Source: Microbacterium sp. JZ31 (GTDB lineage: Bacteria; Actinomycetota; Actinomycetes; Actinomycetales; Microbacteriaceae). Taken from it: 64,000 nucleotides of DNA. Both the position numbers and the translations under genes were made by a program. Below the pieces are notes generated by a model. The model had not been told where the DNA came from, ran no database searches, and saw nothing but the letters and a program-made list of their open reading frames with translations. Each line of letters opens with the position of its first letter. The first letter of the stretch is position 1. Where the stretch lies: NCBI RefSeq assembly GCF_016805985.1, contig NZ_CP017661.1:1178001-1242000 (forward strand). Direction: 5' to 3'. Positions 19,118 to 40,792 of the stretch are shown piece by piece.

Positions 19118-19120
19118 TCC

Positions 19121-20152: not shown

Positions 20153-21361
20153 CTAGGCGGCAGAGCTGCCCGCGGCGGTCGCGATCGCTGAGCGGAATGC
20201 AGCGATTGCCGCGCCGCGTGCCCAGTCGATGAACGTGTGGTGCTGCAGGACGAGCCGGCAGTGGGCGGCCGCGCCGAAGGCGTGTGCCGCGAACTCCTCG
20301 CGGATGCGCCGCTCGTAGAGGTCGTACGCCGTGACGCCCTCGCCCGCGAGCACGACGACCTCGGGGCCGACGAGATTCACGGTCGCAGCCAGAGCCGCGC
20401 CGATGGCGGTGCCCGCGCGATCGAACGCCTCCACGGCGCCCGCGTCGCCCTCGTGCGCGAGGCGGATCGCGTCCTCCAGGCTGAGGTCCGCGTCGCCGTG
20501 CGCGGCGCGGACGGCGTCCCGGATGGCGCTCGACGATGCCACGGCCTCCACGCAGCCCCGTCGCCCGCAGACGCACAGGGCGTCCGGTGACGCGAGGGGG
20601 AGATGACCGATCTCTCCGGCGACGCCGTGCGAGCCGACGACCACGTCGCCGTTGACGTAGATGCCGCAGCCGATGCCCGCGCCGATCGTGACGATCGCGA
20701 AGCTGGCGGCCTCGGCGCCGACGCCGAACCACTGCTCGGCCTTGGCGAGCGCGCGCACGTCGTTCTCGATGACCACCGGCAGGTCGATGTGCGTCCCGAC
20801 CTGCGCGCCGAGCGGCACCTGCGACCAGCCCATCAGCGGTGAGTGCCGGACGACGCCGGTGTCGGTGTCGATGTCGCCCGAGACCGACACGCCCAGGCCG
20901 GCGAGCCGATCCGCCGCGTCTCCCAGCTCGTCGATGAGCTCGCGGGCGCACTCCGCGATCGCCGCGGTGACGGTGGATGGATCGTGCTCGGCGAGCGGGC
21001 GCCGCGTGGAGGCGAGCACCTCGTTGCCGAGGCTGACCGTCGTCGCCACGACCTCGTCCGCGTTGACCTTCACGCCGAGCGCGAGCATCGAGTGCGGGAC
21101 GACGCTGAGCGGGTAGACCGGCCGGCCCGGCGCCGAGTGCTCGGCGTGCTCGCCGACATTCACGAAGCCGTCGCGGATCAGCGGGCTCACGGTCTTGGTG
21201 ACCTTCGCGGGAGACAGGCCCGTGATGCGTCCGATCTCAATTCGACTGATCGGACCATGCGTGATGATCCGCGTGAAGATCTCCGCGGACGTCGCTGTCC
21301 GCAGCTCGGGGAGCATGCCCCGCTTGTCGTCGGGCGTCAGAACCGGTGACGCAGCGCTCAT
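20153..21361 (-). CDS. ROK-family transcriptional regulator
   Basis: 402 residues: N-terminal winged helix (TRIITHGPISRIEIGRITGLS) and a ROK sugar-binding/kinase-like domain with ENDVRALA and the zinc motif GEIGHL-x(8)-C-x-C-GRRGC-E. The DNA-binding domain makes it a regulator, not a glucokinase. Start chosen for AAGGAG close upstream; a weak -10 TACCAT lies at complement 21416-21421. It diverges from the sugar ABC importer, so it is the prime candidate to control that transporter and the glycoside hydrolases. Confidence 0.9.
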   Translation of the reverse strand: MSAASPVLTPDDKRGMLPELRTATSAEIFTRIITHGPISRIEIGRITGLSPAKVTKTVSPLIRDGFVNVGEHAEHSAPGRPVYPLSVVPHSMLALGVKVNADEVVATTVSLGNEVLASTRRPLAEHDPSTVTAAIAECARELIDELGDAADRLAGLGVSVSGDIDTDTGVVRHSPLMGWSQVPLGAQVGTHIDLPVVIENDVRALAKAEQWFGVGAEAASFAIVTIGAGIGCGIYVNGDVVVGSHGVAGEIGHLPLASPDALCVCGRRGCVEAVASSSAIRDAVRAAHGDADLSLEDAIRLAHEGDAGAVEAFDRAGTAIGAALAATVNLVGPEVVVLAGEGVTAYDLYERRIREEFAAHAFGAAAHCRLVLQHHTFIDWARGAAIAAFRSAIATAAGSSAA

Positions 21362-21694
21362 GAGACTCCTTGATGGGGGTCGGCAGCGGTCACGCAGGAC
21401 GATCGCGCTGGTCCGATGGTACTGACGGGCGGGAAGAGGCGGGGCATCTCGCGAAGCGGGCCGCCGCGATGGGAGCGAGCGTCGCGGGTGACGAGGTCGG
21501 ACGAGCTCCGCGTGGGCCGGCGAGGGCGGGCGCGCGGAACGGCCCGGTCCGCGGTGCGGGTGCGGAGTGGGGGGTGGTCGCATGTGCTCCTTCGCGGTGG
21601 CGTACGGCTCTCGGTGGGAGGGTCGGAGGACGGTGGCGTACTGCGCGCCGATGGGTTAATGTTACGCCGTCAATTAATTCGCGAGGAGGCGAAG
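21362..21694. promoter_or_regulatory. Intergenic control region between ROK regulator and ABC importer
   Basis: No gene is seen. At 21657-21681 a block with -10-like TAATGT (21657-21662) and GTCAATTAATTCG matches the block at 28921-28945 at 18 of 25 positions, at a similar distance from the start codon (38 versus 41 bp). AATTAATT inside it is palindromic. The remaining 290 bp or so are plain GC-rich sequence. Confidence 0.55.
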
Positions 21695-22684
21695 ATGACA
21701 ACTGTCGAGGAGGCGCCCGCCGTCCGGGTGTCCCGCAGACCTGCGGCGTCGGCCCAGCCGCGCCCGGTCCGCACGAAGCGGGGCAAGGCGTGGCGCAGCA
21801 TGCGCCGGCACTGGCAGCTGTACCTGCTGCTAGCGGTGCCCGTCGTGTGGTTCATCGTCTTCCGCTACGTCCCCATGGCGAACGCCGTCATCGCGTTCAA
21901 GGACTACAGCCCGGTGCTGGGCGTCTGGGGCAGCCCGTGGGTCGGGTTCACGCACTTCGAGAACCTGTTCTCGAACCCGGTCTTCCCGCGGCTCATCGGC
22001 AACACGTTCCTGCTGGCGGGATACACGCTGCTGGCGAGCTTCCCGCTGCCCATCATCCTCGCGCTGCTGCTCAACGAGGTGCGGCTGCGGTTCTTCAAGC
22101 GCACCGTGCAGATGGTCACGTATGCGCCGTACTTCATCTCGACCGTCGTGATCGTCTCGATGACGATCCTGGTCCTCGCGCCCCGCGCGGGCATCCTCGG
22201 CAGGACGTTCAGCGCCTTCGGGATGGGGCAGGTCGACCTGCTCGGCGACGCGGACTTCTTCCGGCACATCTACGTCGCGACCGACCTTTGGACCACGACC
22301 GGCTACTCCGCCGTGATCTATCTCGCCGCGCTCGCATCGGTCGATGTGTCGCTCTATGAGGCGGCGAAGATCGACGGCGCCTCACGGCTGCAGAAGATCC
22401 GCAACGTCGACATCCCGTCGATCATGCCGACCGCGATGATCATCCTCATCCTCGGTGTCGGCAACATCATGGCGATCGGCTTCGAGAAGGCGTTCCTGCT
22501 GCAGAACCAGCTGAACCTCTCCACCGCGGAGATCATCGCCACGTACGTCTACAAGACGGGCATCCTCAACGCGAACTTCAGCTTCGGCGCCGCGGTCGGG
22601 CTGTTCAACGCCGTGGTCAATCTGGTGCTGCTGCTCGTGGTGAACGCGGTGGCCAAGCGAGTGACGGGGAGCGGGCTGTGGTGA
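21695..22684 (+). CDS. Carbohydrate ABC transporter permease (LplB type)
   Basis: 329 residues with six membrane helices. The EAA loop that docks the ATPase reads YEAAKIDGASRLQKIRNVDIP. The FRYVPMANAVIAFKDY segment is typical of LplB-type permeases for oligosaccharides. ATG at 21695 has GGAGG 6 nt upstream. First gene of a three-gene importer operon (permease, permease, binding protein). No ATPase gene is in the window, so a shared MsiK-like ATPase is expected. Confidence 0.92.
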   Translation: MTTVEEAPAVRVSRRPAASAQPRPVRTKRGKAWRSMRRHWQLYLLLAVPVVWFIVFRYVPMANAVIAFKDYSPVLGVWGSPWVGFTHFENLFSNPVFPRLIGNTFLLAGYTLLASFPLPIILALLLNEVRLRFFKRTVQMVTYAPYFISTVVIVSMTILVLAPRAGILGRTFSAFGMGQVDLLGDADFFRHIYVATDLWTTTGYSAVIYLAALASVDVSLYEAAKIDGASRLQKIRNVDIPSIMPTAMIILILGVGNIMAIGFEKAFLLQNQLNLSTAEIIATYVYKTGILNANFSFGAAVGLFNAVVNLVLLLVVNAVAKRVTGSGLW

Positions 22685-23670
22685 GCGCACTCGACGAGCG
22701 GCGGATGAACGCCACCGAGCTGATCGTCACGAGCGAGGCGCGGGGCCGTCGCGGGCGGTGGCCATGGCGGCGCCCGAGCTCGCGCGGGGTCAAGGTCAAG
22801 GAGACGCGGGCGGATCGCATCTTCGTCGTGTGCGCGTACATCCTGCTGACGGTGTTCCTGCTCGTGGTGTTGTTGCCGCTGCTCAACATCGTCGCGAGCT
22901 CGTTCTCCAGCCCCTCGGCCGTCGCCTCCGGGCGCGTGCTGTTCTGGCCCGTCGACTTCACGCTGCGCGGCTATGAACTGGCGCTCGAAAACCCCGGCAT
23001 CGTCCGCGGCTTCGCGAACTCCCTGTTCTACACGATCGTCGGCACCTCGATCAGCGTGGCCGGGACGATCGCCATCGCCTACCCGCTGTCTCGCACCCAC
23101 TTGTTCGGACGCAAGGTGCTCACGGGCGGCGTGGTGTTCACCATGTTGTTCTCGGGCGGCGTGATCCCGATGTACCTCGTCGTCCAGTCCCTCGGCATGC
23201 TCGACACCCGATGGGCGATGCTGGTACCCAACGCGATCGGCGTGTGGCAGGTCATCATCGCGATGGTGTTCTTCCGCTCCTCGGTGCCGGAGGAGCTACA
23301 CGAGGCCGCGCAGCTGGACGGCGCGAGCGAGCTGCGCATCCTGTGGAAGATCGTGCTGCCGCTGGCGAAGCCGCTCATCGCGGTGATCGCGCTGATGTAC
23401 GCCATCGGCCAGTGGAACTCGTACTTCGATGCGCTGCTGTACCTGCGCGACGCCGATCTGCAGCCGCTGCAGCTCGTGCTGCGCGGCCTGCTCATCCTGA
23501 ACGACCAGGGCAGCGCCGCCGATCTCGCCACGCAGCTCGAGCGGCGGGAGATCCGCGATCTGCTGCGCTACTCGACGGTCGTGATCGCGACCGTCCCGAT
23601 GATGATCGTCTACCCGTTCATCGCCAAGCACTTCACCAAGGGGATGATGATCGGCGCCGTCAAGGGCTGA
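22678..23670 (+). CDS. Carbohydrate ABC transporter permease (YtcP type)
   Basis: 330 residues, six helices after a basic N-terminal tail, with the EAA loop HEAAQLDGASELRILWKIVLP. GTG at 22678 overlaps the end of the first permease gene by 7 bp with GGAG at a 6-nt spacing; a second GTG three bases on is possible. It forms the heterodimeric channel with the upstream permease. Confidence 0.92.
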   Translation: MVSALDERRMNATELIVTSEARGRRGRWPWRRPSSRGVKVKETRADRIFVVCAYILLTVFLLVVLLPLLNIVASSFSSPSAVASGRVLFWPVDFTLRGYELALENPGIVRGFANSLFYTIVGTSISVAGTIAIAYPLSRTHLFGRKVLTGGVVFTMLFSGGVIPMYLVVQSLGMLDTRWAMLVPNAIGVWQVIIAMVFFRSSVPEELHEAAQLDGASELRILWKIVLPLAKPLIAVIALMYAIGQWNSYFDALLYLRDADLQPLQLVLRGLLILNDQGSAADLATQLERREIRDLLRYSTVVIATVPMMIVYPFIAKHFTKGMMIGAVKG

Positions 23671-23717
23671 TCCGGATCCGCTCATTCCCACCCCACCACC
23701 GAGAGAGAGACCCAGCA

Positions 23718-25349
23718 ATGAAGCGCAGTGTTCTCCGGATCGCGATCGCGGCCTCCGCGATCGCGGCCACCACCCTGACGATGTCGGCGTGCGCGCCCGG
23801 CGCGCCGGCGGACGACGGCACGTTCACCGTGTTCGCGCCCCAGGGCACCAACGGCACGCTCGAGGACAACGTGTTCTCGAAGGCCATGGAGGAGAAGTTC
23901 GACATCGACTTCTCCTGGCAGACCACCACCTACGACGGAGCCGTCGCGAACGAGGCGCGGCAGATCTCGCTCGCGAGCGGTGACTACCCGGACGCCTACT
24001 TCCTCGTGCCGTGGGTCGACGGCTTCACCCGCAACGAGGTGCTGAAGTACGGCAAGCAGGGCGTGCTGCTGCCGCTCGAGACCCTGATCGAGGAGCACGC
24101 GCCGAACCTCATGGCGCGCTTCGAGGAGAAGCCGGAGTGGCGGCAGTCGATGACCGCCCCCGACGGTCACATCTACGCCATCACGCAGTGGAGCGAGTGC
24201 TTCCACTGCAGCTTCCAGCGCAAGCTGTGGATGAACTCCGACTGGCTCGACAACCTCGGACTCGAGCAGCCGACCACCACGGATGAGCTCGTCGCCGTGC
24301 TGCGCGCGTTCAAGAACGACGATCCGAACGGCAACGGCAAGGCCGACGAGATCCCGCTCAGCGGGCACAACAACGAGTCGGTCATCGACTACTTCATGAA
24401 CGCCTTCACCTACGCGCCGATCTCGGGCGGCAACCGCCCGGCGCCGCTCGTGCTCGAGGACGGCCAGGTCGCACTGGCGGCCCAGTCCGACAAGTGGCGC
24501 GAGGGGCTCGCGTTCATGCGCTCGCTCGCGGAGGAGGGTTTGCTCGACACCGCCGCCTTCACGCAGAACGGCGACGCGCTGCGCGCGCTCGGCGACAACG
24601 CGGGCGACGTGATCCTCGGCTCGGCGGCTGTGCTGCACCCCTACGAGATCACGACCGCGCCGGCGGAGGACGGCCGCGACACCGCGTACGACGCGGTCGC
24701 CCCGATCGCGGGACCCGACGGGACGCGCCTGGCGACGTGGATGTCGCCCGTGAACCCGGTGGGCATGTTCGCGCTGACGAACAAGTCCAGCGAGGAGGAG
24801 CGCATCAAGGCGATCGAGCTGATCGACTACCTCGTCACCGACGAGGGCAACCGCCTCGGCGCCATGGGCCCCGAGGGCGAGGCGTGGGTGCCCGCCGAGT
24901 CCGGCGACGTGGCGCTCGACCCCGAGCTGGAGCCGACGTTCAAGCCGCTCACGTACGACGAGGGGTCGAACGCGTCGTGGCGCTCGATGGGCCAGTACTG
25001 GGACTCGCTGGAGTACCGCAACGCCCAGGTCTTCCCTGAGGACATCTACTCGACGGACGGGTACGAGCGCCGCCTCCTGCAGGCAACGCAGCTGTACGAG
25101 CCCGCCGCGCCGGGCGAGGACGTCCTCTTTCCGGTCGAGAAGCTCTGGCCGGACCCCGAGACGTCCGCCGAGGTCGCGGAGCTGCAGACGAACATCGCCA
25201 CCTACGTCTCGCAGGCGCAGGCCGAGTTCGTCACGGGCCAGCGCGACATCGCGGACGACGGGGCATGGGACGCGTACCGCTCCGATCTGGAGGGCCTCGG
25301 CCTGCCCCGCTACCTGGAGCTCATGCAGGCAGGGTACGACGCCCTGTGA
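23718..25349 (+). CDS. Extracellular sugar-binding lipoprotein of the ABC importer
   Basis: 543 residues. Signal peptide with lipobox TMSAC at about residue 20, then a family-1 solute-binding fold of LplA size (large for oligosaccharides). The DPNGNGKADEIP segment is a calcium-binding-like loop common in this group. It captures oligosaccharides outside the membrane and delivers them to the two permeases. ATG at 23718 follows a GAGAGAGAGA purine run. Substrate is unknown; context suggests galactose-, fucose- and mannose-containing oligosaccharides. Confidence 0.92.
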   Translation: MKRSVLRIAIAASAIAATTLTMSACAPGAPADDGTFTVFAPQGTNGTLEDNVFSKAMEEKFDIDFSWQTTTYDGAVANEARQISLASGDYPDAYFLVPWVDGFTRNEVLKYGKQGVLLPLETLIEEHAPNLMARFEEKPEWRQSMTAPDGHIYAITQWSECFHCSFQRKLWMNSDWLDNLGLEQPTTTDELVAVLRAFKNDDPNGNGKADEIPLSGHNNESVIDYFMNAFTYAPISGGNRPAPLVLEDGQVALAAQSDKWREGLAFMRSLAEEGLLDTAAFTQNGDALRALGDNAGDVILGSAAVLHPYEITTAPAEDGRDTAYDAVAPIAGPDGTRLATWMSPVNPVGMFALTNKSSEEERIKAIELIDYLVTDEGNRLGAMGPEGEAWVPAESGDVALDPELEPTFKPLTYDEGSNASWRSMGQYWDSLEYRNAQVFPEDIYSTDGYERRLLQATQLYEPAAPGEDVLFPVEKLWPDPETSAEVAELQTNIATYVSQAQAEFVTGQRDIADDGAWDAYRSDLEGLGLPRYLELMQAGYDAL

Positions 25350-25386
25350 CCCGCCCGCTGCGCACCGGATGCCAGCGCGCAGCGGA

Positions 25387-25431
25387 CCACGCGAAAGGCC
25401 CGACGTCCCGGACGTCGGGCCTTTCGCGTGG
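25387..25431. terminator. Bidirectional terminator between importer operon and esterase
   Basis: Perfect 21-bp arms (25387-25407 and 25411-25431) with a 3-nt loop, containing GAAAGGCCCGACGTC. It can serve both converging transcripts. Confidence 0.9.
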
Positions 25432-25470
25432 ACCGGATGAACGACCGCGGCGGGCCGATCCCGCGCGCAG

Positions 25471-26424
25471 TCAGCTGACGGCGCCCAGCACACGACGCAG
25501 CACGGCGAGGGCGCCGAGCCGATCGGCGCTGCCGCCGGCGTCGTGCCCGTTCGAGGGCCACACGGCGATCTCCTTCGCGGCGGCGTACTCGTTGTACGCC
25601 GCGAACGTCGTCGCCGGCGGGGCGATGTCGTCGGCGAGGCCGCAGGAGAACCACGCCGGGGTGTGCGCTACGCGCGCGAAGTTCACGACGTCGAAGTAGC
25701 GCAGCGTGGCGAGCGCCGTCGCGCGGCGTCCGCGGTCGCGCGCGAACAGATCCGAGAGCTCCTGGTACGGGTAGCGGGCGCTCATCGTGAGGGCGCCGGG
25801 CACGTCCGACAGGAACGGCGCCTGTGCGAGCACCGCCGCGACGTCGTCGGCGAGCCAGGCCGCGGCCAGCGCGATGCCGCCGCCCTGGCTGTTGCCGATC
25901 AGCCCGACGCGGGCCGGGTCGACGTCGGGGAGCTGCCGCACCGCGTCGACGGCCAGCGCCGCATCGGTGAAGACGCGCCGGTAGTAGTACGCGTCGGGGC
26001 TCTCGAGGCCGCGTGTGAGGTAGCCCGTCCCGTCGCGCCAGGCGCGGTCCGGCGTGCTCCCGTCGCCCTGACCGCGCGTGTCCATCACGATGTGCGCGTA
26101 TCCCGCGGATGACCACGTCAGGTCGTCGATCGCCTGCCCGCGGCCCGCGCCGTATCCCGTGAAGTGCACGACGGCCGGCAGTCGGCCGTGCCGGTGCCGC
26201 GGCAGCCGCAGCCACGCGTGCACGCGGTCGCCGCCGTAGCCGGAGAACGCGAGATCGAACACGTCGACCGTCTCGAGCGGTGTGTCCACCGGCGTCGCCA
26301 CGGGCTCCTGGGTCGCTCGGCGGGCCTCCGCGAGCGTGCCGCGCCAGAAGGCCGCGAAGTCGTCGGGCGGCGTCTGCGTCGACCGGTAGGCGCGCAGCGC
26401 CGGCTCGCGCGGATCCGCGCTCAC
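25471..26424 (-). CDS. CE7-family acetyl esterase (acetylxylan esterase/cephalosporin-C deacetylase)
   Basis: 317 residues, alpha/beta hydrolase that removes O-acetyl groups from oligosaccharides in the cytoplasm (no signal peptide). Ser nucleophile in GNSQGGG, Asp in GLADDIAPP and His in NGHDAGG form the triad; RGQGDGSTPD is the CE7 oxyanion-region motif. The GTG at 26424 overlaps the GH95 stop as GTGA, so the two are translationally coupled: deacetylation and defucosylation together. Confidence 0.9.
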   Translation of the reverse strand: MSADPREPALRAYRSTQTPPDDFAAFWRGTLAEARRATQEPVATPVDTPLETVDVFDLAFSGYGGDRVHAWLRLPRHRHGRLPAVVHFTGYGAGRGQAIDDLTWSSAGYAHIVMDTRGQGDGSTPDRAWRDGTGYLTRGLESPDAYYYRRVFTDAALAVDAVRQLPDVDPARVGLIGNSQGGGIALAAAWLADDVAAVLAQAPFLSDVPGALTMSARYPYQELSDLFARDRGRRATALATLRYFDVVNFARVAHTPAWFSCGLADDIAPPATTFAAYNEYAAAKEIAVWPSNGHDAGGSADRLGALAVLRRVLGAVS

Positions 26425-28859
26425 CGCGTCGCCGCCGACGCGGGGAGGGTCACGGCGCCCGCCCCCACCGTCACCTCGTGGCGCTCGCCGCAGTTGCTCA
26501 CCGTGACGCGCGCCGGGGCTGCGCCGGTCGCGTCGTGCGCGGTCACGGCCGTCGGCCGTCCGTCCCGCCAGGCGAGGTCGATCGCGACGCCGCCCCGCGT
26601 GTGCACGCCCCTGATCTCGCCGCTCGGCCACGCGGTCGGCAGGGCCGGAAGCAGGCGGATCGGATCGTCGGCCGTTCCCCGGCCGGATCCGACGAGCATC
26701 TCGGCGATCGCGGCGGTGAAGCCGAAGTTGCCGTCGAGCTGGAACGGCGGATGCGTGGAGAACAGGTTGGGCAGGAGGCCGCCCCAGGCCGATCCATCGA
26801 CGGGGCCGTCGACATCCGGATCGTCCGTGTACGGACGGATGGCCTCGCGGAAGAGGTCGCGAGCCGCCTCGCCGTCGCCGAGCCGTGCCCGCAGCGCGAT
26901 CTTCCACGCCCACGACCAGCCCATGGCGCCGCCGCCGCGCGCGTCGAGGGTCGCCCGCGCGGCCTCGGCGAGCTCGGGCGTGCGCTCGACGTCGATGGTC
27001 GTGAGCGGATACAGCCCGACGAGGTGGGACACGTGGCGGTGGTGCGCGTCCGTCGCGACGACATCGGCGCCCCATTCCGCGACCTGGCCCGCGGGGGCGG
27101 TCCCGCCCGCCGGGACGACGCGCGGCAGCGGGATGCGGGGCAGCGCCGCACGGATCTCCTCGAGCAGCGGATCGCCCTCCGTGCCCGCCGCCGTGCCCGC
27201 GGCGAGGGTGCGCTCGAGCGTCGCGCGGATGAGGGTGAGGTCCATGCCGGTCGACGTGGAGACGGATCCGACGGATCCGTCCGCGCGACGGAACGAGTTC
27301 TCGGGCGAGGTCGCGGGCGAGGTGCCGAGATCGCCCCTGCCGTCCTCCACGAGCCAGTCGAGCGCGAAGGCGCTCGCCCCGCGCAGGAGGGGCAGGATGC
27401 GCTCCGCCAGCTGCGCCCGGTCGCGTCCGTACTCCCACCGCTGCCAGAGGTGATCCGCGAGCCACAGGCCGCCCATCGGCCAGAACGCCCAGGACGTGGC
27501 GCCCTCGCCGGCGCCGACCGGCAGCGCGTAGCCCCATGGGTCGGTGTTGTGGTGCGCGACCCAGCCGCGAGCGCCGTACAGCGCGCGCGCCACCGCCGCA
27601 CCCGACTCGGCGACGCGGTCGATCAGATCGAGCAGCGGCTCGTGCAGCTCGCCCAGCCCGGTGCGCTCGGCGAGCCAGTAGTTCATCTCGGTGTTGATGT
27701 TGATCGTGTAGTTCGACGACCACGGTGGGCGCATCGAGTCGTTCCAGATGCCCTGCAGGTTCGCCGGCGGTGAGCCGGGACGCGAGGAGGAGACGAGCAC
27801 GTAGCGCCCGAAGGCGAACAGCACTTCGGCCATGCGGCGGTCGTCGCCCGAGGCGAGCAGGTCCGCGACGTCGACCGCGCCGCGGGACGCATCGCCGAGG
27901 TGCAGGCGCGCGCGCCCGAGCAGCCGCGTCGCATCCTGTTCGTGACGCGCGGCCAGCACGTCCGGGCCCTCGTCGGCGGCGCGGGTGGCGCGCTCGCGCG
28001 CGAGGGCCGCGAGCTCTGGACGCGCGAGCGCCGGGAGGCGGTTCCACCACCGGCGCGCGCTCGTCTCCGTCGCGAGGACCACCGTGATCCGCCGCGCGCC
28101 CGCGATGCGCAGGTCGGCGTCGCGAGCGGTCACCTCGCCGTCCGTCCGCACGGCGAGCGCGACCGCCGCCGCGGGATCGAAGCCCTCGGACGCGTCGTTC
28201 GCCCACACGTGCGCCGGGGCATTCGGGTGATGGCTCGGCGCACCGTCGACGGGGGCCTGCACCAGCACGTCGATCGCGCCGCTCCCGGCCGCCGTCGCGC
28301 CTGCCGCCGCATCGAGGAGGCGCAGCGGCGAGCGCAGCCGGATGCGCGCCGCGAGCGGAGCGTCCGCCGCGACGTCCACGACGAGCACGCCATCGGGCGC
28401 GGAGGCCCAGGTGCGCCGGCGGATACGCGCGCCGTCGCGGGTGAACGACTCCTCGGCGACCGCCCGGTCCAGGTCGAGCACGCGCTCGTACTCCTGCGCA
28501 TCCACGGCGCCGAGGTCGACCTCCAGGTCGCCGAGCGGCAGGAACTCCTGACTCCACGGCCCCTCGAACGTGCGCAGCAGGCGCTCGACGGTATCGTCGT
28601 CGCCCGCGGCCACCGCGGCGCGCGCCTCCGCGAGGCGTGCGGGGCCCGCGCCCTTCGCGATGACCGACTCCAGCGCACGCGCGGGGCCGTCCGGGGTGCC
28701 CGACCAGACGCTGGAGTCGTTCAGGGCGACGCGTCCCGTCCTGTCCCCGAACACCATGCCGCCGAGCGCGCCATTGCCGATCGGCGCGGCCTCTGTCCAG
28801 TGCGCGGCGGGAGCGGTCCAGCGCAGCCGGAGGCCGTCGGAGCGGTTCGAGGGAGCCAT
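26421..28859 (-). CDS. GH95 alpha-L-fucosidase (or alpha-L-galactosidase)
   Basis: 812 residues without a signal peptide. The GH95 signatures are SSNYTININTEMNYW (about 380-395), which supplies the activating asparagines, and FQLDGNFG with catalytic Asp709. The enzyme inverts and removes alpha-1,2-linked L-fucose from galactose; some members prefer L-galactose. ATG at 28859 chosen; GTG at 28868 is equally possible. Its promoter overlaps that of the divergent GH36 gene. A downstream fucose-oxidation-like operon in this window favours fucose as product. Confidence 0.9.
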   Translation of the reverse strand: MAPSNRSDGLRLRWTAPAAHWTEAAPIGNGALGGMVFGDRTGRVALNDSSVWSGTPDGPARALESVIAKGAGPARLAEARAAVAAGDDDTVERLLRTFEGPWSQEFLPLGDLEVDLGAVDAQEYERVLDLDRAVAEESFTRDGARIRRRTWASAPDGVLVVDVAADAPLAARIRLRSPLRLLDAAAGATAAGSGAIDVLVQAPVDGAPSHHPNAPAHVWANDASEGFDPAAAVALAVRTDGEVTARDADLRIAGARRITVVLATETSARRWWNRLPALARPELAALARERATRAADEGPDVLAARHEQDATRLLGRARLHLGDASRGAVDVADLLASGDDRRMAEVLFAFGRYVLVSSSRPGSPPANLQGIWNDSMRPPWSSNYTININTEMNYWLAERTGLGELHEPLLDLIDRVAESGAAVARALYGARGWVAHHNTDPWGYALPVGAGEGATSWAFWPMGGLWLADHLWQRWEYGRDRAQLAERILPLLRGASAFALDWLVEDGRGDLGTSPATSPENSFRRADGSVGSVSTSTGMDLTLIRATLERTLAAGTAAGTEGDPLLEEIRAALPRIPLPRVVPAGGTAPAGQVAEWGADVVATDAHHRHVSHLVGLYPLTTIDVERTPELAEAARATLDARGGGAMGWSWAWKIALRARLGDGEAARDLFREAIRPYTDDPDVDGPVDGSAWGGLLPNLFSTHPPFQLDGNFGFTAAIAEMLVGSGRGTADDPIRLLPALPTAWPSGEIRGVHTRGGVAIDLAWRDGRPTAVTAHDATGAAPARVTVSNCGERHEVTVGAGAVTLPASAATR

Positions 28860-28897
28860 CGTCCTCACTTCTCTCAGGGCACGGCGGTGTGCTCGCC

Positions 28898-28937
28898 TTG
28901 CTCCGTCAGCGTAGGATCAGTAAGTTTCTGCTGTCAA
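28898..28937. promoter_or_regulatory. Overlapping divergent promoters of GH95 and GH36 with a central dyad
   Basis: Toward GH95: -35 TTGACA (complement 28932-28937), 18-bp spacer, -10 TACGCT (complement 28908-28913). Toward GH36: -35 TTGCTC (28898-28903), 17-bp spacer, -10 TAAGTT (28921-28926). The near-perfect dyad CAGTAAGTTTCTG (28918-28930) lies in both, so one bound regulator could control both directions. Confidence 0.7.
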
Positions 28938-28961
28938 TAAAATCGAGGCGAGGTGGTCACG

Positions 28962-31144: not shown

Positions 31145-31154
31145 GCCGACCTGG

Positions 31155-31201: not shown

Positions 31202-31209
31202 CGCCCGGG

Positions 31210-33732: not shown

Positions 33733-33825
33733 CGTGCTCTCCATCCATTTCGGGGGATGCGCGCTGGCCGAGGTGCGGGAACGGCACTGTTCCAGGGCGC
33801 ACGGCGCGTCCCGTCGGGGGAGCAC

Positions 33826-33870: not shown

Positions 33871-33942
33871 GAGGGTGCCGCGGATTGATTGACGCTCGAA
33901 AGAAAGCCTGCGAGGGTGAGGTGACGGACCACGGAGGTACCC

Positions 33943-34548
33943 ATGACAGCGCCCACGCTCGTCTTCGCCGGTGACAGTGTCACGGACGCGGATCGCCGGA
34001 TGGACCCCGCCGGACTCGGTCAGGGCTATGTGCGGCTGCTGGCGGACGACCCGGCACTGGCCGGCGCGCGCGTGGTCAACGCAGGCATCGCGGGGGACCG
34101 CGTGCGGGATCTCCGCGCGCGCTGGTCGGAGGACGTCGCCGTCCACGAGCCCGCGATCGTGAGCGTGCTGATCGGCGTCAACGACATGTGGCGCCGCTTC
34201 GACAGCGACGATCCGACATCCGCCGCCGACTTCGAGCGCGACTATCGCGCGATCCTGGACGGGACGGACGGCGCGCGGCTCGTGCTGATCGAGCCCTTCC
34301 TGCTGGCGGTCCGCGAGGAGCAGGCCGCCTGGCGCGCCGACCTCGAGGAGAAGATCGCGGTCGTGCATGCGCTCGCGGCGGAGCGCGACGCCGTCCTGGT
34401 GCGGGCGGATCGCGAACTCCGCATGCGCGGCGACAACCCCGCACTTGCCGCCGACGGCGTCCATCCCACTGCGCACGGGCATCGCGCGCTCGCCGATCTC
34501 TGGCTGGAGGCCGCGGGCGAGCTCTCGCGGCACATGCCGCGCGCCTGA
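33943..34548 (+). CDS. SGNH/GDSL hydrolase, probable carbohydrate deacetylase
   Basis: 201 residues without a signal peptide. Block I GDSVTD (Ser nucleophile), the Gly of block II, GVND (block III) and DGVHPTAHGH (block V, Asp and His) are all present. Small SGNH proteins in glycan loci usually remove acetyl groups from oligosaccharides. Start supported by GGAGG 5 nt upstream. Divergent from GH27 and convergent with GH38. Confidence 0.9.
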   Translation: MTAPTLVFAGDSVTDADRRMDPAGLGQGYVRLLADDPALAGARVVNAGIAGDRVRDLRARWSEDVAVHEPAIVSVLIGVNDMWRRFDSDDPTSAADFERDYRAILDGTDGARLVLIEPFLLAVREEQAAWRADLEEKIAVVHALAAERDAVLVRADRELRMRGDNPALAADGVHPTAHGHRALADLWLEAAGELSRHMPRA

Positions 34549-34606: not shown

Positions 34607-37600
34607 TCAGAGCGTCACGCGCAGCGTGCGCACCTCGAAGGGCGTCAGCGACAGGGCCACCTCGCGTCCGTCGACCAGCGTGACGGGCTCGAGGGTCCCG
34701 TCGTCGTCCTCGATGAGCGACGCGGGGGCGACCGCCGTCACCGCGCGAGCGAATCGCAGCCAGCCGGTCGCGCGACGCCCGTGCGGCTCGTACAGGCGGA
34801 CGACGAGGTCCCCCGAGCGGTCGGCCGCGAGCTTCACCGCCGACACGAGGATGCCGTCGGAGACCTCGACCACGGGTGCGATCGTCGCCGGCTCCCATCG
34901 CGCCGGGCCGGCGCCCGCGTCCGTGCCGCCGCCCGCGCGCAGCGGGAGGTTCATCGCGAGCCCCGCCGCGGTCGCCTCGGCGATGTCGGCGCCGATCACG
35001 AACGCGTAGCGGTGCGTCTGCTCGCCCTGATCCGTCTCCGGGTCCGGGAACCGCGGTGCGCGCAGGAGCGACAGGCGCACGGTCGTCGTCACGCCCTGCC
35101 GGGGCGTGGAGTCCCGCGTGACGTCGTAGCCGTACGTCGAATCGGTCGTGAGCGCGACGCCGAAGCCGGGCTCCCCGACGTGCACGAAGCGGTGCATCGC
35201 GGTCTCGAACTTCGCGGCCTCCCAGCTTGTGTTCGTGTGCGTCACGCGCTTGGCGTAGCCGAACTGCGTCTCTGCCGCGGTGTGCTCCGCATGCAGGGCG
35301 AGCGGGAAGGCGACCTTGAGGAACTTCTCGGTCTCGCGCCAGTCGGTCGTCTGCGCGAACTCGAGCGCCCGCGAACCGCCCCGCAGCGTGATCCTCTGCG
35401 TCACCGCTGACCGCGAGAAGCGGCGCGACACGACCACGGACACGCCGTCCGACGCCTGTTCGATCGTCAGCGACTCCACCGCGCGCAGATCGTCGACACG
35501 GTTGCGGTAGTAGCGGTCGACGTCCCACGCGTCCCACATCGCGGGGAAGTCCGGATGGAGCTGCAGCAGGTTCGCCTCCGCGCCGGCGGGGATCGCGTCG
35601 CGCCCGGTCGCGAGATCCACCGCCGAGGCGATGAGGCCCTCCGCCGTGATCACGACCCGCACCAGCTCGTTCTCCAGCACGTACCCGCCGTCCGCGGGCG
35701 TAGCCCGCGCGCTCGCGCCCGACCGTGCGGGGCGCCCCGCGCCCAGCGCCGGCACGCCGTGCTGCGGGATCGGGGCCGGGTTGAAGACGAGCTCGGTCTC
35801 GCCGCCGCTCAGTGCGGCGATCGACCGGCGGATGAGCGCCTCCGCCGCGGCGATCACGCGGGCGTACTGCTCCACAGCCTCGCGGTGCACCCACGCGATC
35901 GAGGTGCCGGGGAGGATGTCGTGGAACTGCTGCAGCAGCACCTGCCGCCAGAGGGCATCCACCTCGTCGTAGGGATAGTCGGCGCCCGTCCAGAACGTCG
36001 CCGACGCGGCCCACAGCTCCGCCTCGATCAGCAGGTGCTCGCTGCGCCGGTTGCCCTGCTTGGTCTTGTGCTGGCTCGTGAGCGTCGCCCGGTGCAGCTC
36101 GAGGTAGAGCTCGCCGACCCACACGGGCGGCTGCGGCAGCTGCTGCTTCGCGCGGTCGAAGAACGCGTCCGGGTGCTCCCAGCGCACCCTGGCCGATCCC
36201 TCGAGATCCGCCAGGCGCTTCGCGATGCCGGTCATCTCTCGGGTCGTGCCGCCGCCGCCGTCCCCGAACCCGACCGGGGCGATGGAGCCGTTCGCGAGAC
36301 GCGCCTCGCGGAACTGACGCGTCGCGCGAGCGATCTCCGCGCCTGCCAGGCGGGAGTTGTAGGTGTCCATCGGCGGGAAGTGACTGAAGACCCGCGACCC
36401 GTCGATGCCCTCCCACGCGAACGTGTGGTGGGGGAACCGGTTCACCTGATTCCAGGAGATCTTCTGCGTGAAGAACCACTCGAAGCCTGCACGCCGGATC
36501 AGCTGGGGGAGCGCGGGCGAGTAGCCGAACGAGTCGGGCAGCCACACGCCCTTCGAGCGGATGCCGAACTCCTCCTCGAAGAACCGCTGCCCGTAGAGGA
36601 ACTGCCGGGCGATCGCCTCGCCGGTCGGCATGACGGTGTCGGACTCGACCCACATCCCGCCGAGCGGCAGGAACCGCCCCTCCGCGACCGCCGTGCGCAC
36701 CTTCTCGTACACCTCGGGGCGGTGCTGCTTGATCCACGCGTACTGCTGTGCGCTCGACATGCCGTAGACGAACTCGTCGGTCTCGCCGATCAGATCGGTC
36801 ATGGACGACGTCGTGCGGGCGACCTTGCGGATCGTCTCCCGCACTGGCCACAGCCACGCCGAGTCGATGTGCGCGTGCCCCACGGCGGAGATCTCGTGCG
36901 CAGACGCCTCGGCGGGCGACGCCAGCGCCGGAGCGAGCGCCGCGCGCGCCGCGGCCGCCGTGCCGGGGACGTCCTGCAGGTCGAGCAGATCGAGCGCGTC
37001 GTCGAGTGTCTGCAGGATGCGCATGCGACGCGGACCCGAGTCGGCGAGCTCCGCCTGCAGCTCGATCAGCACCTCGAGGTCGAGCGCGAGCTCGAAGGCC
37101 TCGGCCTCGAAAACGGCGAGGTCGAAGCAGCGCGTCGTGTAAAGCCTGCGCGGCGACGACGTCCGGATGTCGCCCTGCTGCGTCGGCAGGAAGGGCTGGC
37201 CCGCCGGGAAGGCGGCGACGTCCAGCACCACCGGGTTGGATGCCGCCTCGATGAAGAACTCGACCGGTTCACCGCCGGAGGCGACATCCGCGATCCGCAC
37301 CCACTGATTGCGCGGATTGAGCGACTTCACCGGCGAGCCGTCCGGCAGGTACACGAGGCCCTCGCACTGGAAACCGGTCAAGTTGACGTCGAAGCCGAGG
37401 TCGACGAGGGCCTCGACCCGGCGACCCGACCACTCCGCCGGGACCGTGCCTCGGACGCGGAACCACGTCGTGCCCCACGCGGCACCCCACGAGGAGCCGA
37501 CCTCGAAGGGGTGGAAGTCGAGTCGGAGGCCGTCGGCCGGTGCGATCGGCTCCCCGGGCAGCTCGTGGAACTCGACCTCGAGCGGCACGCGCTGCGCGTG

Positions 37601-37672
37601 GACGGCGGGAAGGATCCGTTCGCGCAGCACCCGAACGGCACGTCCGACGGTGAGCGGGATGTCGTCATGCAT
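34607..37672 (-). CDS. GH38 alpha-mannosidase
   Basis: 1021 residues, cytoplasmic. The zinc-binding GHAHIDSAWLWP lies near residue 265 and the nucleophile Asp380 is in WLPDSFGYS; a second metal-site region reads SHFPPMDTYNSR. Large beta domains follow. Removes terminal alpha-mannose from oligosaccharides. ATG 37672 is preferred, since it overlaps a small upstream frame; a GTG at 37684 is also in frame. Neither has a good Shine-Dalgarno, which suggests coupling to upstream translation. Last gene of the fucose-type operon. Confidence 0.92.
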   Translation of the reverse strand: MHDDIPLTVGRAVRVLRERILPAVHAQRVPLEVEFHELPGEPIAPADGLRLDFHPFEVGSSWGAAWGTTWFRVRGTVPAEWSGRRVEALVDLGFDVNLTGFQCEGLVYLPDGSPVKSLNPRNQWVRIADVASGGEPVEFFIEAASNPVVLDVAAFPAGQPFLPTQQGDIRTSSPRRLYTTRCFDLAVFEAEAFELALDLEVLIELQAELADSGPRRMRILQTLDDALDLLDLQDVPGTAAAARAALAPALASPAEASAHEISAVGHAHIDSAWLWPVRETIRKVARTTSSMTDLIGETDEFVYGMSSAQQYAWIKQHRPEVYEKVRTAVAEGRFLPLGGMWVESDTVMPTGEAIARQFLYGQRFFEEEFGIRSKGVWLPDSFGYSPALPQLIRRAGFEWFFTQKISWNQVNRFPHHTFAWEGIDGSRVFSHFPPMDTYNSRLAGAEIARATRQFREARLANGSIAPVGFGDGGGGTTREMTGIAKRLADLEGSARVRWEHPDAFFDRAKQQLPQPPVWVGELYLELHRATLTSQHKTKQGNRRSEHLLIEAELWAASATFWTGADYPYDEVDALWRQVLLQQFHDILPGTSIAWVHREAVEQYARVIAAAEALIRRSIAALSGGETELVFNPAPIPQHGVPALGAGRPARSGASARATPADGGYVLENELVRVVITAEGLIASAVDLATGRDAIPAGAEANLLQLHPDFPAMWDAWDVDRYYRNRVDDLRAVESLTIEQASDGVSVVVSRRFSRSAVTQRITLRGGSRALEFAQTTDWRETEKFLKVAFPLALHAEHTAAETQFGYAKRVTHTNTSWEAAKFETAMHRFVHVGEPGFGVALTTDSTYGYDVTRDSTPRQGVTTTVRLSLLRAPRFPDPETDQGEQTHRYAFVIGADIAEATAAGLAMNLPLRAGGGTDAGAGPARWEPATIAPVVEVSDGILVSAVKLAADRSGDLVVRLYEPHGRRATGWLRFARAVTAVAPASLIEDDDGTLEPVTLVDGREVALSLTPFEVRTLRVTL

Positions 37673-37760
37673 CGGTCTTCGCACCCGTCCGCAGCCACAG
37701 GTTCTGCGGGTCGCCGACGCCGGTCTCGCGGCCGACGATCCGGAGGCGTCCGAGCGTCAT
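37665..37760 (-). CDS. Possible 31-residue coupled small ORF
   Basis: Starts ATG within the stop of the aldo/keto reductase gene (ATGA overlap) with GGAAGGA close upstream, and ends 8 bp inside the GH38 start (ATGCATGA). It encodes MTLGRLRIVGRETG, then DPQNLWLRTG. Both junctions look like translational coupling, and GH38 has no ribosome site of its own. It might be a leader that delivers ribosomes to GH38, a real small protein or chance. I know no homologue. Confidence 0.4.
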   Translation of the reverse strand: MTLGRLRIVGRETGVGDPQNLWLRTGAKTDA

Positions 37761-38764
37761 GATGTCCTTCCGACGTGCCGGGGATCTTCTCGTTCAGGTC
37801 GCGGAACCAGCCCCTCGGCGTCGAGTTCGGCCCACAGGGCGTCGGGCACGTGCGCGCGGTAGCGCTCGATCGTGCTCGCCACATGCTCCGCAGTCCGGCT
37901 GCCGAGCACGACCGACGCGACGGCGGGGTGCCGCAGCGGATACTGCACCGCCGCCTCCGGCAGGGTCACGCCGTGCGCCTCGCACACGCGCGCGATGCGG
38001 CGCGCGTGCTCGATCGTCTCGCGCGGGGCGGGGCCGTAGTCGTAGTGCGCGTCGTCCGGCACCGCGGGTGCGCTCAGCAGGCCCGAGTTGTAGGCGGCTG
38101 CGGCCACGACGCCGACGCCGCGCTCGAGCGCGAGCGGGAGCATCTCGTCGAGCGCGCGCTGATCGGCGAGCGTGAAGCGCCCGGCCACCATGACGACGTC
38201 GACGTCGCAGCGCCGGATGAACTCGGCCAGCATCTCCGCCTGGTTCATGCCGACGCCGATCGCGCCGACGACGCCCTGCTCGCGCAGCTCGACGAGCGCG
38301 TCGACACCGGTCGTCGACGCCGCGGCCCAGTGCTCGTCCGGATCATGGAGGTAGACGATGTCGAGGTGGTCCGTGCGCAGTCGCGCCAGGCTCGCGTCGA
38401 GCGAACGCAGCACGCCGTCCCGGCTGAAGTCCCACACGCGCCGGGTGGCGGCGGGGACGACGAAGCCCTCGTCGTCGAGGCGATCCGCGGTGCCCGGGCT
38501 GGGCCGCAGCAGGCGTCCGACCTTGCTCGAGAGCACGTACTCGTCGCGCGGATATCCCGCGAGCGCCGCGCCCAGCCGCTCCTCCGAGAGCCCGAGCCCG
38601 TAGTGCGGGGCGCTGTCGAAGTAGCGGATGCCCGCGTCCCACGCGCGCTCCACCGCATCCGCGGAGGTCTCCGCGGTCGTCTCCCGGAAGAGGTTGCCGA
38701 ACTGTGCGGCGCCCAGGCCGATCTCGGTCAGCTCCAGCCCGGTGCGCAGTGCGCGCGTCTTCAT
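37757..38764 (-). CDS. Aldo/keto reductase, L-fucose (D-threo-aldose) 1-dehydrogenase-like
   Basis: 335 residues, TIM-barrel NAD(P)-dependent enzyme. The catalytic set is Asp in YFDSAPHYG, the Tyr two turns on, Lys in SSKVGR, and His in YLHDPDEHW. Length and the PSPGTADRLDDEGFVVP loop fit the D-threo-aldose/L-fucose dehydrogenase type, which makes aldonolactones. ATG at 38764 overlaps the lactonase stop (ATGA); a longer in-frame start lies inside that gene and is not supported. Context (lactonase, dehydratase) supports an oxidative sugar route. Confidence 0.88.
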   Translation of the reverse strand: MKTRALRTGLELTEIGLGAAQFGNLFRETTAETSADAVERAWDAGIRYFDSAPHYGLGLSEERLGAALAGYPRDEYVLSSKVGRLLRPSPGTADRLDDEGFVVPAATRRVWDFSRDGVLRSLDASLARLRTDHLDIVYLHDPDEHWAAASTTGVDALVELREQGVVGAIGVGMNQAEMLAEFIRRCDVDVVMVAGRFTLADQRALDEMLPLALERGVGVVAAAAYNSGLLSAPAVPDDAHYDYGPAPRETIEHARRIARVCEAHGVTLPEAAVQYPLRHPAVASVVLGSRTAEHVASTIERYRAHVPDALWAELDAEGLVPRPEREDPRHVGRTS

Positions 38765-39639
38765 CGGTCGTTCTCCACGTGTGCCAGACCGTACACGCGG
38801 ACGGCGTTGCCGCCCCATACCCGCGCGCGCAGATCCGGTGCGAGATCCGCGAGCACCCCGTCGACCACGTCGACCCACTCGCGCGGTGCCGCGGCGAGCA
38901 GCACGACGGGCCAGTCGCTGCCGAACAGCAGCCGATCGGGCCCGAACACCGTGAACGCGTGGTCGATCGCACCGCGGAGCTCGTCGCCGTCCCACCGGTC
39001 CCAGTGTGCCTCGGTGACGACCCCGGAGAGCTTCGCGACCGTGTTCGGCGCCGCGGCGACCGCCGCGAGGTCGTCCCGCCACCGCTCCAGGCCGTCCCTC
39101 GCGCCCATCCCGGCAGCCGCGATCGGCGGCTTGCCGAGGTGGTCGAGGACGAACCGCGTCTCGGGATGACGGGCGACGAGCGCCGCCGCGTCGGCGAGCT
39201 GCTCGGGACGCAGCACCAGATCGAACGGAAGGTCGGCGGCCGCGAGGGCGTCGAGCCCCGCTCCCGTGCGCGCACGCGACAGCCAGTGCTCGTCGGGGTC
39301 TTGATGCACGAGGTGGCGGATGCCCACGAGCGCGTCACCGCCTCGTGCGTCGCGCAGCCGCCGCAGCGCGGTTTCGACGTCGCCGTGGAGATCGAGCCAG
39401 CCGACGACTCCCGGAACCGTCCTCGGATGCGCGTCGGCGACGGCGAGGAACGCGAGCGTCTCCGCCGTGCTGTGCGCGGTCTGCACCAGAACGGTGCGCG
39501 CGATGCCGCTCTGCCGCTGCATCGCGAGCAGATCGTCGAGCCAGACGTCCCGGTCGATCGCCGCCATCGTGATCGGGTCGATCCACGGCTGGGGCGTCAG
39601 GTGCCGCTGCCAGAGATGCGCGTGTGCGTCGACGATCAC
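38761..39639 (-). CDS. Amidohydrolase-family lactonase, L-fuconolactonase-like
   Basis: 292 residues, COG3618-type TIM-barrel hydrolase. DAHAHLWQ at the N-terminus, GIRHLVHQDPDEHWL in the middle, DHLGKP, then FGSDWPV near the C-terminus give the metal- and substrate-binding residues. It opens sugar lactones to aldonates. GTG start with GGAAGGGAG about 6 nt upstream. Placed between the dehydratase and the aldo/keto reductase, it would hydrolyse the lactone made by the latter. Confidence 0.88.
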   Translation of the reverse strand: MIVDAHAHLWQRHLTPQPWIDPITMAAIDRDVWLDDLLAMQRQSGIARTVLVQTAHSTAETLAFLAVADAHPRTVPGVVGWLDLHGDVETALRRLRDARGGDALVGIRHLVHQDPDEHWLSRARTGAGLDALAAADLPFDLVLRPEQLADAAALVARHPETRFVLDHLGKPPIAAAGMGARDGLERWRDDLAAVAAAPNTVAKLSGVVTEAHWDRWDGDELRGAIDHAFTVFGPDRLLFGSDWPVVLLAAAPREWVDVVDGVLADLAPDLRARVWGGNAVRVYGLAHVENDR

Positions 39640-39707
39640 GCCGGGCTCCCTTCCGTCTCCCGGTCCCGGGCGACGCCGTCGTCCGACGGACAGCCGCGCG
39701 CGCTCAT
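39636..39707 (-). CDS. Very small open frame (23 residues) between dehydratase and lactonase
   Basis: ATGA overlap with the dehydratase stop and GTGA overlap with the lactonase start; reads MSARGCPSDDGVARDRE. The lactonase has its own Shine-Dalgarno, so coupling is not needed, and chance is likely. Recorded because a similar arrangement recurs 2 kb away in the same operon. Confidence 0.2.
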   Translation of the reverse strand: MSARGCPSDDGVARDRETEGSPA

Positions 39708-40792
39708 GCGACGATCCTGTCGTCGATCGCGTCGCGGTCCCAGTCGATCCCGAGCCCGGACCTCTCGGGGGCCAGCGCGTGACCGTCGGCGATCTGCATC
39801 TCGCTCCGGGTGATGGCGCGCAGCTGCGGGATGTGCTCGACGTAGCGTCCGTTCGGCACGGCGGCGGCGAGGCTGACGTGCAGCTCCATCAGGAAGTGCG
39901 GACACACGGCGACGTTGAACGCCTCGGCGAGGTGCGCGACCTTCAGCCACGGCGTGATGCCGCCGATGCGTGCCACGTCGACTTGCACGATGCTCGCGGC
40001 GCCGCGTTCCAGGTACTCGCGGAACGGGCTGACCGCGTACATCGACTCGCCCACGGCGACCGGGATGGACGTCGAGCGCGCGAGGGTGCGGTGGCCCTCG
40101 ACGTCGTCGGCGAGCATGGGCTCCTCGAACCATGCGAGGTCGAGGGACTCGAAGGCCTTGGCACGGCGGACAGCCTCGCCACGAGTCAGGGACTGGTTCG
40201 CGTCCACCATGATGTCGACGCGCTCGCCGACGGCGTCCCGCACCGCGCGCAGCCTCTCGACGTCGTCGAAGACGTGCGGGCTGCCGACCTTGATCTTGAC
40301 CCCGGCCCAGCCCTCCGCCACCGACCGGCGTGCGCCCTCGACGAGCTCGTCCGGCGACAGGTGCAGCCAGCCGCCCTCGGTGTCGTAGAGCGGCACGTCG
40401 CGACGGAAGCCGCCCGCGACCTGCCAGAGCGGCGCGTCGTGGCGGAGGCATCGGAGGTCCCAGAGTGCGGTGTCGACGGCAGCCAGGGCGAGCGAGGTGA
40501 TGGCTCCCGTGGTCGTCGCCCGGGTCGAGGTGAACAGCGTCATCCACGCGGCCTCGATGCGCCCCGGGTCCATCCCGATCAACCGGTCCAGCAGGTGGTC
40601 GCGCAGCATCGACAGCACGGCGCGGCCACCCGTGCCGATCGTGTAGGAGTAGCCCGTGCCCACGAGGCCATCGTCCGTCGCGATCTCGACGAAGATCGTC
40701 TCCTGTTTCAGGAAGCTCTGCACCGCGTCGGTCCGCTCGGTCTCGACGTCGAGGTCGACGAGGTAGGCACGCGCCCGGGTGATCATCGACAT
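39704..40792 (-). CDS. Enolase-superfamily sugar-acid dehydratase, mandelate racemase subgroup
   Basis: 362 residues. The full mandelate-racemase constellation is present, each offset by +2 from the known enzyme: Lys166 and Lys168 (VKIKVG), metal ligands Asp197, Glu223 and Glu249, the dyad Asp272-His299, and Glu319. It would dehydrate an aldonate to a 2-keto-3-deoxy acid. L-fuconate is the likely substrate from its neighbours, but classical L-fuconate dehydratases are about 440 residues, so another 6-deoxy- or hexonate is possible. ATG has GGAG 6 nt upstream. First gene of the operon. Confidence 0.88.
   Translation of the reverse strand: MSMITRARAYLVDLDVETERTDAVQSFLKQETIFVEIATDDGLVGTGYSYTIGTGGRAVLSMLRDHLLDRLIGMDPGRIEAAWMTLFTSTRATTTGAITSLALAAVDTALWDLRCLRHDAPLWQVAGGFRRDVPLYDTEGGWLHLSPDELVEGARRSVAEGWAGVKIKVGSPHVFDDVERLRAVRDAVGERVDIMVDANQSLTRGEAVRRAKAFESLDLAWFEEPMLADDVEGHRTLARSTSIPVAVGESMYAVSPFREYLERGAASIVQVDVARIGGITPWLKVAHLAEAFNVAVCPHFLMELHVSLAAAVPNGRYVEHIPQLRAITRSEMQIADGHALAPERSGLGIDWDRDAIDDRIVA

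Follow-up and report, generated by a model that had tools for sequence, protein, structure and literature searches.

A run of genes for carbohydrate-active enzymes on the chromosome of Microbacterium sp. JZ31 raises the question of which glycan it serves. The run occupies positions 20153-40792 of the 64,000-nucleotide stretch analyzed here (the window), which is C1:1178001-1242000 of a 3.19-Mb one-contig chromosome (guanine-plus-cytosine content of 2-kb blocks, 66-75%), and a preliminary description had taken it for a single locus devoted to acetylated fungal fucomannogalactan. Pfam, NCBIfam and PDB searches confirmed the gene families named in that description, except that GH36 is not one intact frame. 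The locus comprises two units: a core at 20153-34548, with a ROK regulator, an ATP-binding cassette (ABC) importer, CE7, GH95, GH36, a secreted GH27 and an SGNH esterase, and a second unit at 34607-40792, with GH38, an aldo/keto reductase (AKR), a lactonase and an enolase-family dehydratase, consecutive and all on the minus strand. We propose, with a probability of roughly 45%, that the core serves, under ROK control, the utilization of an alpha-galactan bearing alpha-L-fucose and O-acetyl groups, for which a fungal fucogalactan is the most likely type. The broader reading of a coordinated locus for an acetylated glycan with fucose and alpha-galactose is well supported at the sequence level, because the clustering is conserved, the promoters share a motif and L-fucose oxidation genes are present.

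The core cluster recurs in other genera

Whether the same gene set occurs in other genomes, a question raised in the preliminary description, was addressed in the best 80 of 580 GH95 relatives with flanks of up to 10 kb (loci are designated L and genomes G). GH95 was accompanied by at least two of CE7, GH36, GH27 and ROK (with 38% identity as the lower limit) in 12 of these 80 loci (L001-L007 and L009-L013), which belong to Streptomyces, Actinacidiphila, Catellatospora, Leifsonia, Planotetraspora, Amycolatopsis, Microbacterium and one Actinomycetales metagenome-assembled genome; in two short pieces (L008 and L030), CE7 was the only companion. Since GH95-CE7-GH36-GH27-ROK thus recurs in other actinobacterial genera, the set is more than a chance assembly. 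The importer genes most similar to ours among the named GH95 loci were those of Microbacterium species. Two congeners found via GH95 among 58 genomes (G014 and G028) carry GH27-GH36-GH95-CE7-ROK-enolase together with the ABC operon. In the sample of our own family, GH27 was present in 10 of 299 genomes, our own included (E up to 1e-60), indicating a patchy distribution, and in five of the nine other carriers (G078, G170, G211, G234 and G323) it lies beside GH95, GH36, CE7, ROK and ABC genes.

In a quick tree of 89 GH95 rows, the 22 linked actinobacterial proteins, that of the window included, formed one clade (Shimodaira-Hasegawa-like approximate likelihood ratio test, 100) with no unlinked row, and three Paenibacillus proteins formed a second. 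The linkage label changed only 2 times on this tree, against a shuffled mean of 22.1, and none of 500 shuffles was as low; in this count L008 and L030 are linked by CE7 alone, and the rows added from the G genomes are seven linked and one unlinked (G015), other unlinked matches and our own second GH95 being left out. The window row itself ends in a long branch, and its composition is unusual.

The three Paenibacillus loci (L020, L029 and L050), in which GH27 was also matched among the best 80, have orthologues of the importer (permeases at about 60 and 56%, binding protein at 44%), two GH95s, a GH110-type protein, an AraC-type sensor with a response regulator and a protein with a Melibiase_C match only. 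Their GH27s are cut at the locus edge, so that only the C-terminal modules, accompanied in L020 by S-layer (SLH) domains, are covered, and the diagnostic residue described below lies outside the sequence.

A motif is shared by the core promoters

Comparison of the intergenic stretches of the locus revealed an AT-rich, operator-like word at three core promoters. The exact pattern GTCAANNAAWYCG, picked to fit these three sites, matches the 3.19-Mb genome at 4 sites, of which this locus accounts for 3, and its reversed control has 0 matches. The fourth match (C1:2824986), which lies among ribosomal-protein/secY-like genes named by eye, was dropped as support. When up to 2 mismatches were allowed, the window had 8 matches compared to 4.58 expected by chance, and 7 of 100 shuffles had at least 8; only sites with 0 or 1 mismatch are therefore meaningful.

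A weight matrix scored at least 12 at 41 of 61 target promoters, which belong to the GH95, GH36, GH27 and permease 1 genes of 19 loci, but at only 5 of 428 other promoters. The matrix was trained without the window, leaving out each locus in turn, and was seeded by a consensus written after the sites had been seen; divergent genes sharing one site were counted twice, operon-internal genes were scored as misses, and other genes starting less than 700 bases from a target were excluded from the 428. The frame-shifted GH36 of the window is outside the 61, and L001-L003 and L006-L008, which had no promoter match, are outside the 19 loci. The motif also occurs at the GH27 genes of G068 and G344, which have no neighboring GH95 in the fetched stretches; the GH27 promoters of G293 and G111 had no site within 300 bases, and G293 has one further upstream. 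Most simply, the motif would be a putative operator bound by the ROK regulator. The window promoters of GH38, AKR, lactonase and enolase scored -3.0 to -4.3 and hence lack it, so that the single locus described earlier holds for the coordinated core set but not for these four genes.

The secreted GH27-like enzyme is not an ordinary alpha-galactosidase

Of the enzymes of the locus, GH27 alone has a signal-peptide-like start, as judged by eye. It has the GH27 barrel with nucleophile Asp248 and acid/base Asp307, and its predicted structure model reached a predicted local distance difference test score (pLDDT) of 80.7. The residue facing galactose O6 is Asp in alpha-galactosidases and Glu or Ile in beta-L-arabinopyranosidases, according to an excerpt of PMC4598101. 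In the window enzyme this position is Ala135, which fits neither class, and among the 120 homologues listed of 547 (8,000 candidates scored) it is Ala in 105 and Ser in 15, our own included. The earlier assignment of this protein as a remover of alpha-galactose thus keeps the fold and the catalytic Asp pair but loses the O6-facing Asp, and because Ala/Ser replaces that Asp, the enzyme is, by its sequence, not an ordinary alpha-galactosidase. It resembles the GH27 beta-L-arabinopyranosidases Abp and CpArap27 (same excerpt) in fold and catalytic Asp pair, with 29% identity to Abp, and differs from them by Ala/Ser in place of Ile/Glu at the specificity position and by extra C-terminal modules. 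The GH27 isomalto-dextranase (PDB 5awo), a glucan enzyme, is 19% identical to it.

The remaining core enzymes retain family signatures

The reference catalytic residues for GH95 are Asn421/Asn423 of AfcA and, in BACOVA_03438, the general acid Glu501 with Asn372/374. In the window protein the counterpart of Glu501 (4ufc chain) is Glu520, as counted in the printed alignment, and TININT at 385-390 supplies Asn387/Asn389, Thr385 being the Thr/His position. Inference of specificity from that position was dropped, being contradicted by PMC8245568, the available part of which reports that it does not decide between L-fucose and L-galactose. A second GH95 in the genome (L093, C1:547605-549893; 1,270 amino acids as called, in an open frame of 1,459) is 46% identical to that of the window.

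The GH36 gene is in two frames. The N-terminal parts of intact relatives (G014, L012 and L004) match from 28959, 28962 and 28989 to 29729, and the remainder matches 29729 to 31138-31141 in another frame; the 751-residue open reading frame at 28889-31144 is therefore wrong for its first 270 or so residues. The change may be a sequencing error or a real frameshift. The PDB alignment indicates that the catalytic barrel (29729-31144) retains the DDGWF signature, DDGW(F) being the galactose-binding motif of GH36. Against the NCBIfam beta-L-arabinopyranosidase model the protein gave a weak match (101 bits; cut-off, 1100). Another GH36 gene is found at C1:132784. Relatives of the SGNH esterase at 50-55% are present in clusters L004 and L005.

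The second unit is linked to L-fucose oxidation

GH38 was found in none of the 80 related GH95 loci; of the 295 genomes sampled from the genus, 187, our own included, have it (E up to 1e-60). On these counts and for want of the motif, it was rejected as a member of the conserved core, and it is not diagnostic of the substrate. A 4-kb contig of the congener G531 holds, in order, AKR (92%), a fumarylacetoacetate (FAA) hydrolase, a short-chain dehydrogenase/reductase (SDR) and GH38 (91%), and GH38 therefore travels with fucose genes in this lineage. A distant homologue (27%) lies about 6 kb from the GH27 of G028. The genome has a second GH38 copy (C1:3093228, in L144, C1:3084000-3103900), 82-84% identical, beside a ROK-like gene and a GntR-like gene, the latter named by eye.

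Non-phosphorylating L-fucose oxidation proceeds through L-fucose dehydrogenase, L-fuconolactonase, L-fuconate dehydratase (FucD), an SDR and an FAA hydrolase. The window contributes candidates for the first two steps: the AKR, whose next best match in the genome is at 36%, and the lactonase, which scored 212 bits against NF052480, below the curated cut-off of 400, and may still work alike. The window enolase was rejected as FucD, being nearer to talarate/galactarate dehydratase; a FucD-like gene is found at C1:1554611, beside genes named by eye as similar to tripartite ATP-independent periplasmic (TRAP) transporters. An FAA hydrolase and an SDR are encoded at C1:284998-286574, with a GntR-type gene and a further lactonase-like gene as neighbors. 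Judged by family, the genome thus holds the complete route, spread over three sites. In Microbacterium trichothecenolyticum (L010), G078 and G323, the cluster adjoins the full set of L-fucose oxidation families. Orthologues of the window enolase (62-70%) occur in or beside the clusters of L010, G014, G028, G078 and G323. The loci recorded with orthologues are L010, L133-L136, L118 and L126. Since L010, G078 and G323 have a separate FucD as well, the enolase of the conserved cluster probably serves a second acid sugar.

Proposed pathway and candidate substrates

In the pathway that we propose, GH27, the only recognized secreted enzyme, would cut the polymer outside the cell into fucosylated, acetylated galacto-oligosaccharides, accepting 6-O-substituted galactose because Ala/Ser has replaced the O6-facing Asp. 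The ABC importer would take up the oligosaccharides, cytoplasmic CE7 and SGNH would strip their acetyl groups, GH95 would remove alpha-1,2-L-fucose, and GH36 would remove alpha-galactose. L-Fucose could then be converted to pyruvate and lactate by AKR and lactonase of the window, FucD at C1:1554611, and the SDR and FAA hydrolase near C1:285000. GH38 with AKR, lactonase and enolase would form an adjoining fucose-catabolic unit, which in this lineage also includes an alpha-mannosidase. In the classical structure of mushroom heterogalactans, a backbone of alpha-1,6-Gal is substituted at O-2 by L-Fuc or 3-O-alpha-Man-alpha-L-Fuc, as given in an extract of PMC6432100. This structure fits an alpha-1,2-acting GH95, a GH36 and an O6-open GH27, and GH38 fits the mannosylated form; acetylated fucomannogalactan would be the best-fitting specific substrate. 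As stated in the preliminary description, no beta-glucanase or beta-mannanase was recognized in the locus by the Pfam scan; neither was a backbone enzyme besides GH27, and the whole genome has no GH5 or GH29 match.

Several observations weigh against this substrate. In four of the nine other GH27 carriers (G068, G111, G293 and G344), the fetched stretches contain no GH95, the contig of G111 being only 12 kb long and the GH27 of G293 being adjoined by a ROK gene. The clusters of Streptomyces, Actinacidiphila, Planotetraspora and Amycolatopsis gave no match to the motif. GH36 is frame-shifted in this assembly, Thr385 of GH95 does not tell L-fucose from L-galactose, and GH38 is common in the genus and outside the motif-bearing unit. 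Two further features suggest linkages beyond those proposed: L010 and the Paenibacillus loci encode proteins of the GH110 type, an alpha-1,3-galactosidase family, which point to alpha-1,3-Gal, and G078 and G323 each have two GH29 genes beside the cluster. What stands of the earlier assignment is a coordinated locus for an acetylated glycan with fucose and alpha-galactose; GH38 does not identify the fucomannogalactan, and acetyl on Gal and Glc is rejected for Macrolepiota procera polysaccharides in the portion of PMC9410249 at hand. Lastly, the preliminary description had named activity of GH27 on beta-L-arabinopyranose as a result that would contradict it, and the nearest solved structure is indeed a beta-L-arabinopyranosidase, yet Ala/Ser matches neither class.

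In an alternative that we consider unlikely, the substrate would be side chains of arabinogalactan proteins or gums, with GH27 as a beta-L-arabinopyranosidase (or a dual beta-L-Arap/alpha-Gal exo-enzyme) and GH95 taking L-fucose or L-galactose off plant glycans; the known beta-L-arabinopyranosidases have Glu or Ile where this enzyme has Ala/Ser, and neither GH43 or GH51 nor a beta-galactanase or any family of arabinose catabolism was recognized by Pfam in the window locus or the selected cluster genes scanned. The same enzymes could also serve another source, namely, a bacterial or other microbial exopolysaccharide or O-antigen with acetylated L-Fuc or L-Gal and alpha-Gal. The two esterases, which imply an acetylated glycan, and the GH110-type proteins of L010 and Paenibacillus, which imply alpha-1,3-Gal, are in line with such a source, but no other backbone depolymerase was recognized among the cluster genes scanned, and we hold it to be improbable.

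A cell-wall heteroglycan of Mucoromycota (mucoran/glycuronan, with Fuc, Man, Gal and GlcA) would bring in the neighboring hexuronate operon (11656-20134) as the consumer of GlcA. Fuc:Man:Gal:GlcA of 5:1:1:6 is reported in the part of PMC10481521 available, and ManD-like dehydratase, KDPG-type aldolase, kinase and fructuronate-reductase-like genes do adjoin the locus. This possibility is nevertheless slight, as the operon carries a separate LacI regulator, those uronate-operon enzyme genes that were tested had no match beside the G014 and G028 clusters, and no glucuronidase or uronate lyase was recognized in the locus. GH38 enzymes act on N-glycans, and the presence of GH38 would suit N-glycan side chains as the substrate. 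Plant xyloglucan side chains would account for GH95, which is used in xyloglucan loci (PMC8245568, in part). Both are very improbable: the window locus has no GH74 or GH35 match, its sole GH31 match, at 23.6 bits against a cut-off of 23.5, is marginal and due to cross-matching by the GH36 barrel, the genome lacks GH5 and GH29 matches, and GH38 is outside the motif-bearing unit.

Relation to known systems

The fucogalactan-type system proposed here shares with the Xanthomonas xyloglucan locus (GH74-GH31-GH35-GH95-CE20; excerpt of PMC8245568) a GH95 fucosidase, an acetylesterase and an importer in one locus. Unlike that locus, the window has no recognized endo-glucanase, alpha-xylosidase or beta-galactosidase, has GH27/GH36 instead and uses an ABC rather than a TonB system. 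All five enzyme types of L-fucose oxidation are in our genome, as they are near the cluster in G078 and G323, but here they are spread over three sites, and the cluster has an extra enolase-family dehydratase. No description of the cluster, of a bacterial fucogalactan pathway or of a backbone-cleaving enzyme was found in the searches made of open-licence literature, subscription papers not being covered, in agreement with the preliminary description, which knew of no bacterial system of this composition. We regard the cluster as a Gram-positive glycan-utilization locus of new composition with an unexplored GH27 subgroup.

A further proposal, which we regard as rather doubtful, is that the Ala/Ser-type GH27s are a new class of secreted depolymerases cutting alpha-1,6-linked (6-O-substituted) galactan, in an endo or oligosaccharide-releasing manner, and that the ROK/ABC/CE7/GH95/GH36/GH27 cluster is the first bacterial system for fungal heterogalactan to be described, common to soil Actinobacteria and, in variant form, to Paenibacillus. 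Mushroom heterogalactans, which attract study as bioactive polysaccharides in food, must undergo turnover in soil. The recurrent cluster narrows what is to be tested to a single secreted enzyme with an unexplored active site, a single importer and a single operator motif.

Features of the locus and its surroundings

Table 1. Genes and promoter sites of the two units, in window coordinates
Feature	Position	Strand	Basis
ROK-family transcriptional regulator, 387 aa	20153..21316	-	PF00480 183 bits; weak MarR/HTH N-terminus
Operator-like motif GTCAATTAATTCG, before ABC operon	21669..21681	+	
ABC permease 1 (BPD)	21695..22684	+	PF00528; 77-83% to L010-L012 (Microbacterium) and to the congeners G014, G028
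ABC permease 2 (BPD)	22678..23670	+	PF00528; 81-83% to L010-L012, G014, G028
Solute-binding lipoprotein, 543 aa, lipobox-like MSAC	23718..25349	+	Position and orthologues
CE7 acetylesterase (AXE1), no apparent signal peptide	25471..26424	-	PF05448 308 bits
GH95 alpha-L-fucosidase/galactosidase, no apparent signal peptide	26421..28859	-	PF22124 466.6 bits (cut-off 27)
Operator-like motif GTCAATAAAATCG, between GH95 and GH36	28933..28945	+	
GH36 alpha-galactosidase gene, frame change near 29729	28962..31144	+	PF02065 373 bits; PDB alignment; two-frame tblastn match
GH27-like enzyme, jelly-roll (CE2_N-like) and CBM_X2 modules, signal-peptide-like N-terminus	31210..33744	-	PF16499, PF17801, PF17996, PF03442
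Operator-like motif GTCAATCAATCCG, between GH27 and SGNH	33881..33893	-	
SGNH/GDSL esterase, 201 aa, no apparent signal peptide	33943..34548	+	PF13472 81 bits
GH38 alpha-mannosidase, no apparent signal peptide	34607..37630	-	PF01074 295 bits
Aldo/keto reductase, candidate L-fucose (L-galactose-type) dehydrogenase	37757..38764	-	PF00248; best PDB match L-galactose dehydrogenase
Candidate L-fucono-1,5-lactonase, amidohydrolase-type	38761..39639	-	NF052480; best PDB match 4dlf
Enolase-superfamily acid-sugar dehydratase, KxK motif, talarate/galactarate-dehydratase-like	39704..40792	-	PF13378; NF047820 302 bits (cut-off 500)

A longer form of the ROK regulator starting at 21583 was rejected, its cluster relatives being mostly of 380-395 amino acids. 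The solute-binding protein had no Pfam or NCBIfam match; its counterparts, encoded third in the ABC operons of L010-L012, G014 and G028, share 71-74% identity with it. No ABC ATPase was recognized among the locus genes scanned, a shared one encoded elsewhere being assumed and not searched for. GH94 had 0 matches in the whole genome.

The hexuronate-type operon at 11656-20134 encodes DUF3237, a PfkB kinase, a KDPG/KHG aldolase, a ManD-like dehydratase (NF043051, 674 bits, above the cut-off of 550), a major facilitator superfamily (MFS) transporter, a zinc dehydrogenase, a fructuronate-reductase-like mannitol dehydrogenase and a LacI regulator. On the other side of the locus, the window contains a transfer-messenger RNA (tmRNA) gene at 57645-58011, with the tag AESKRTDFALAA.

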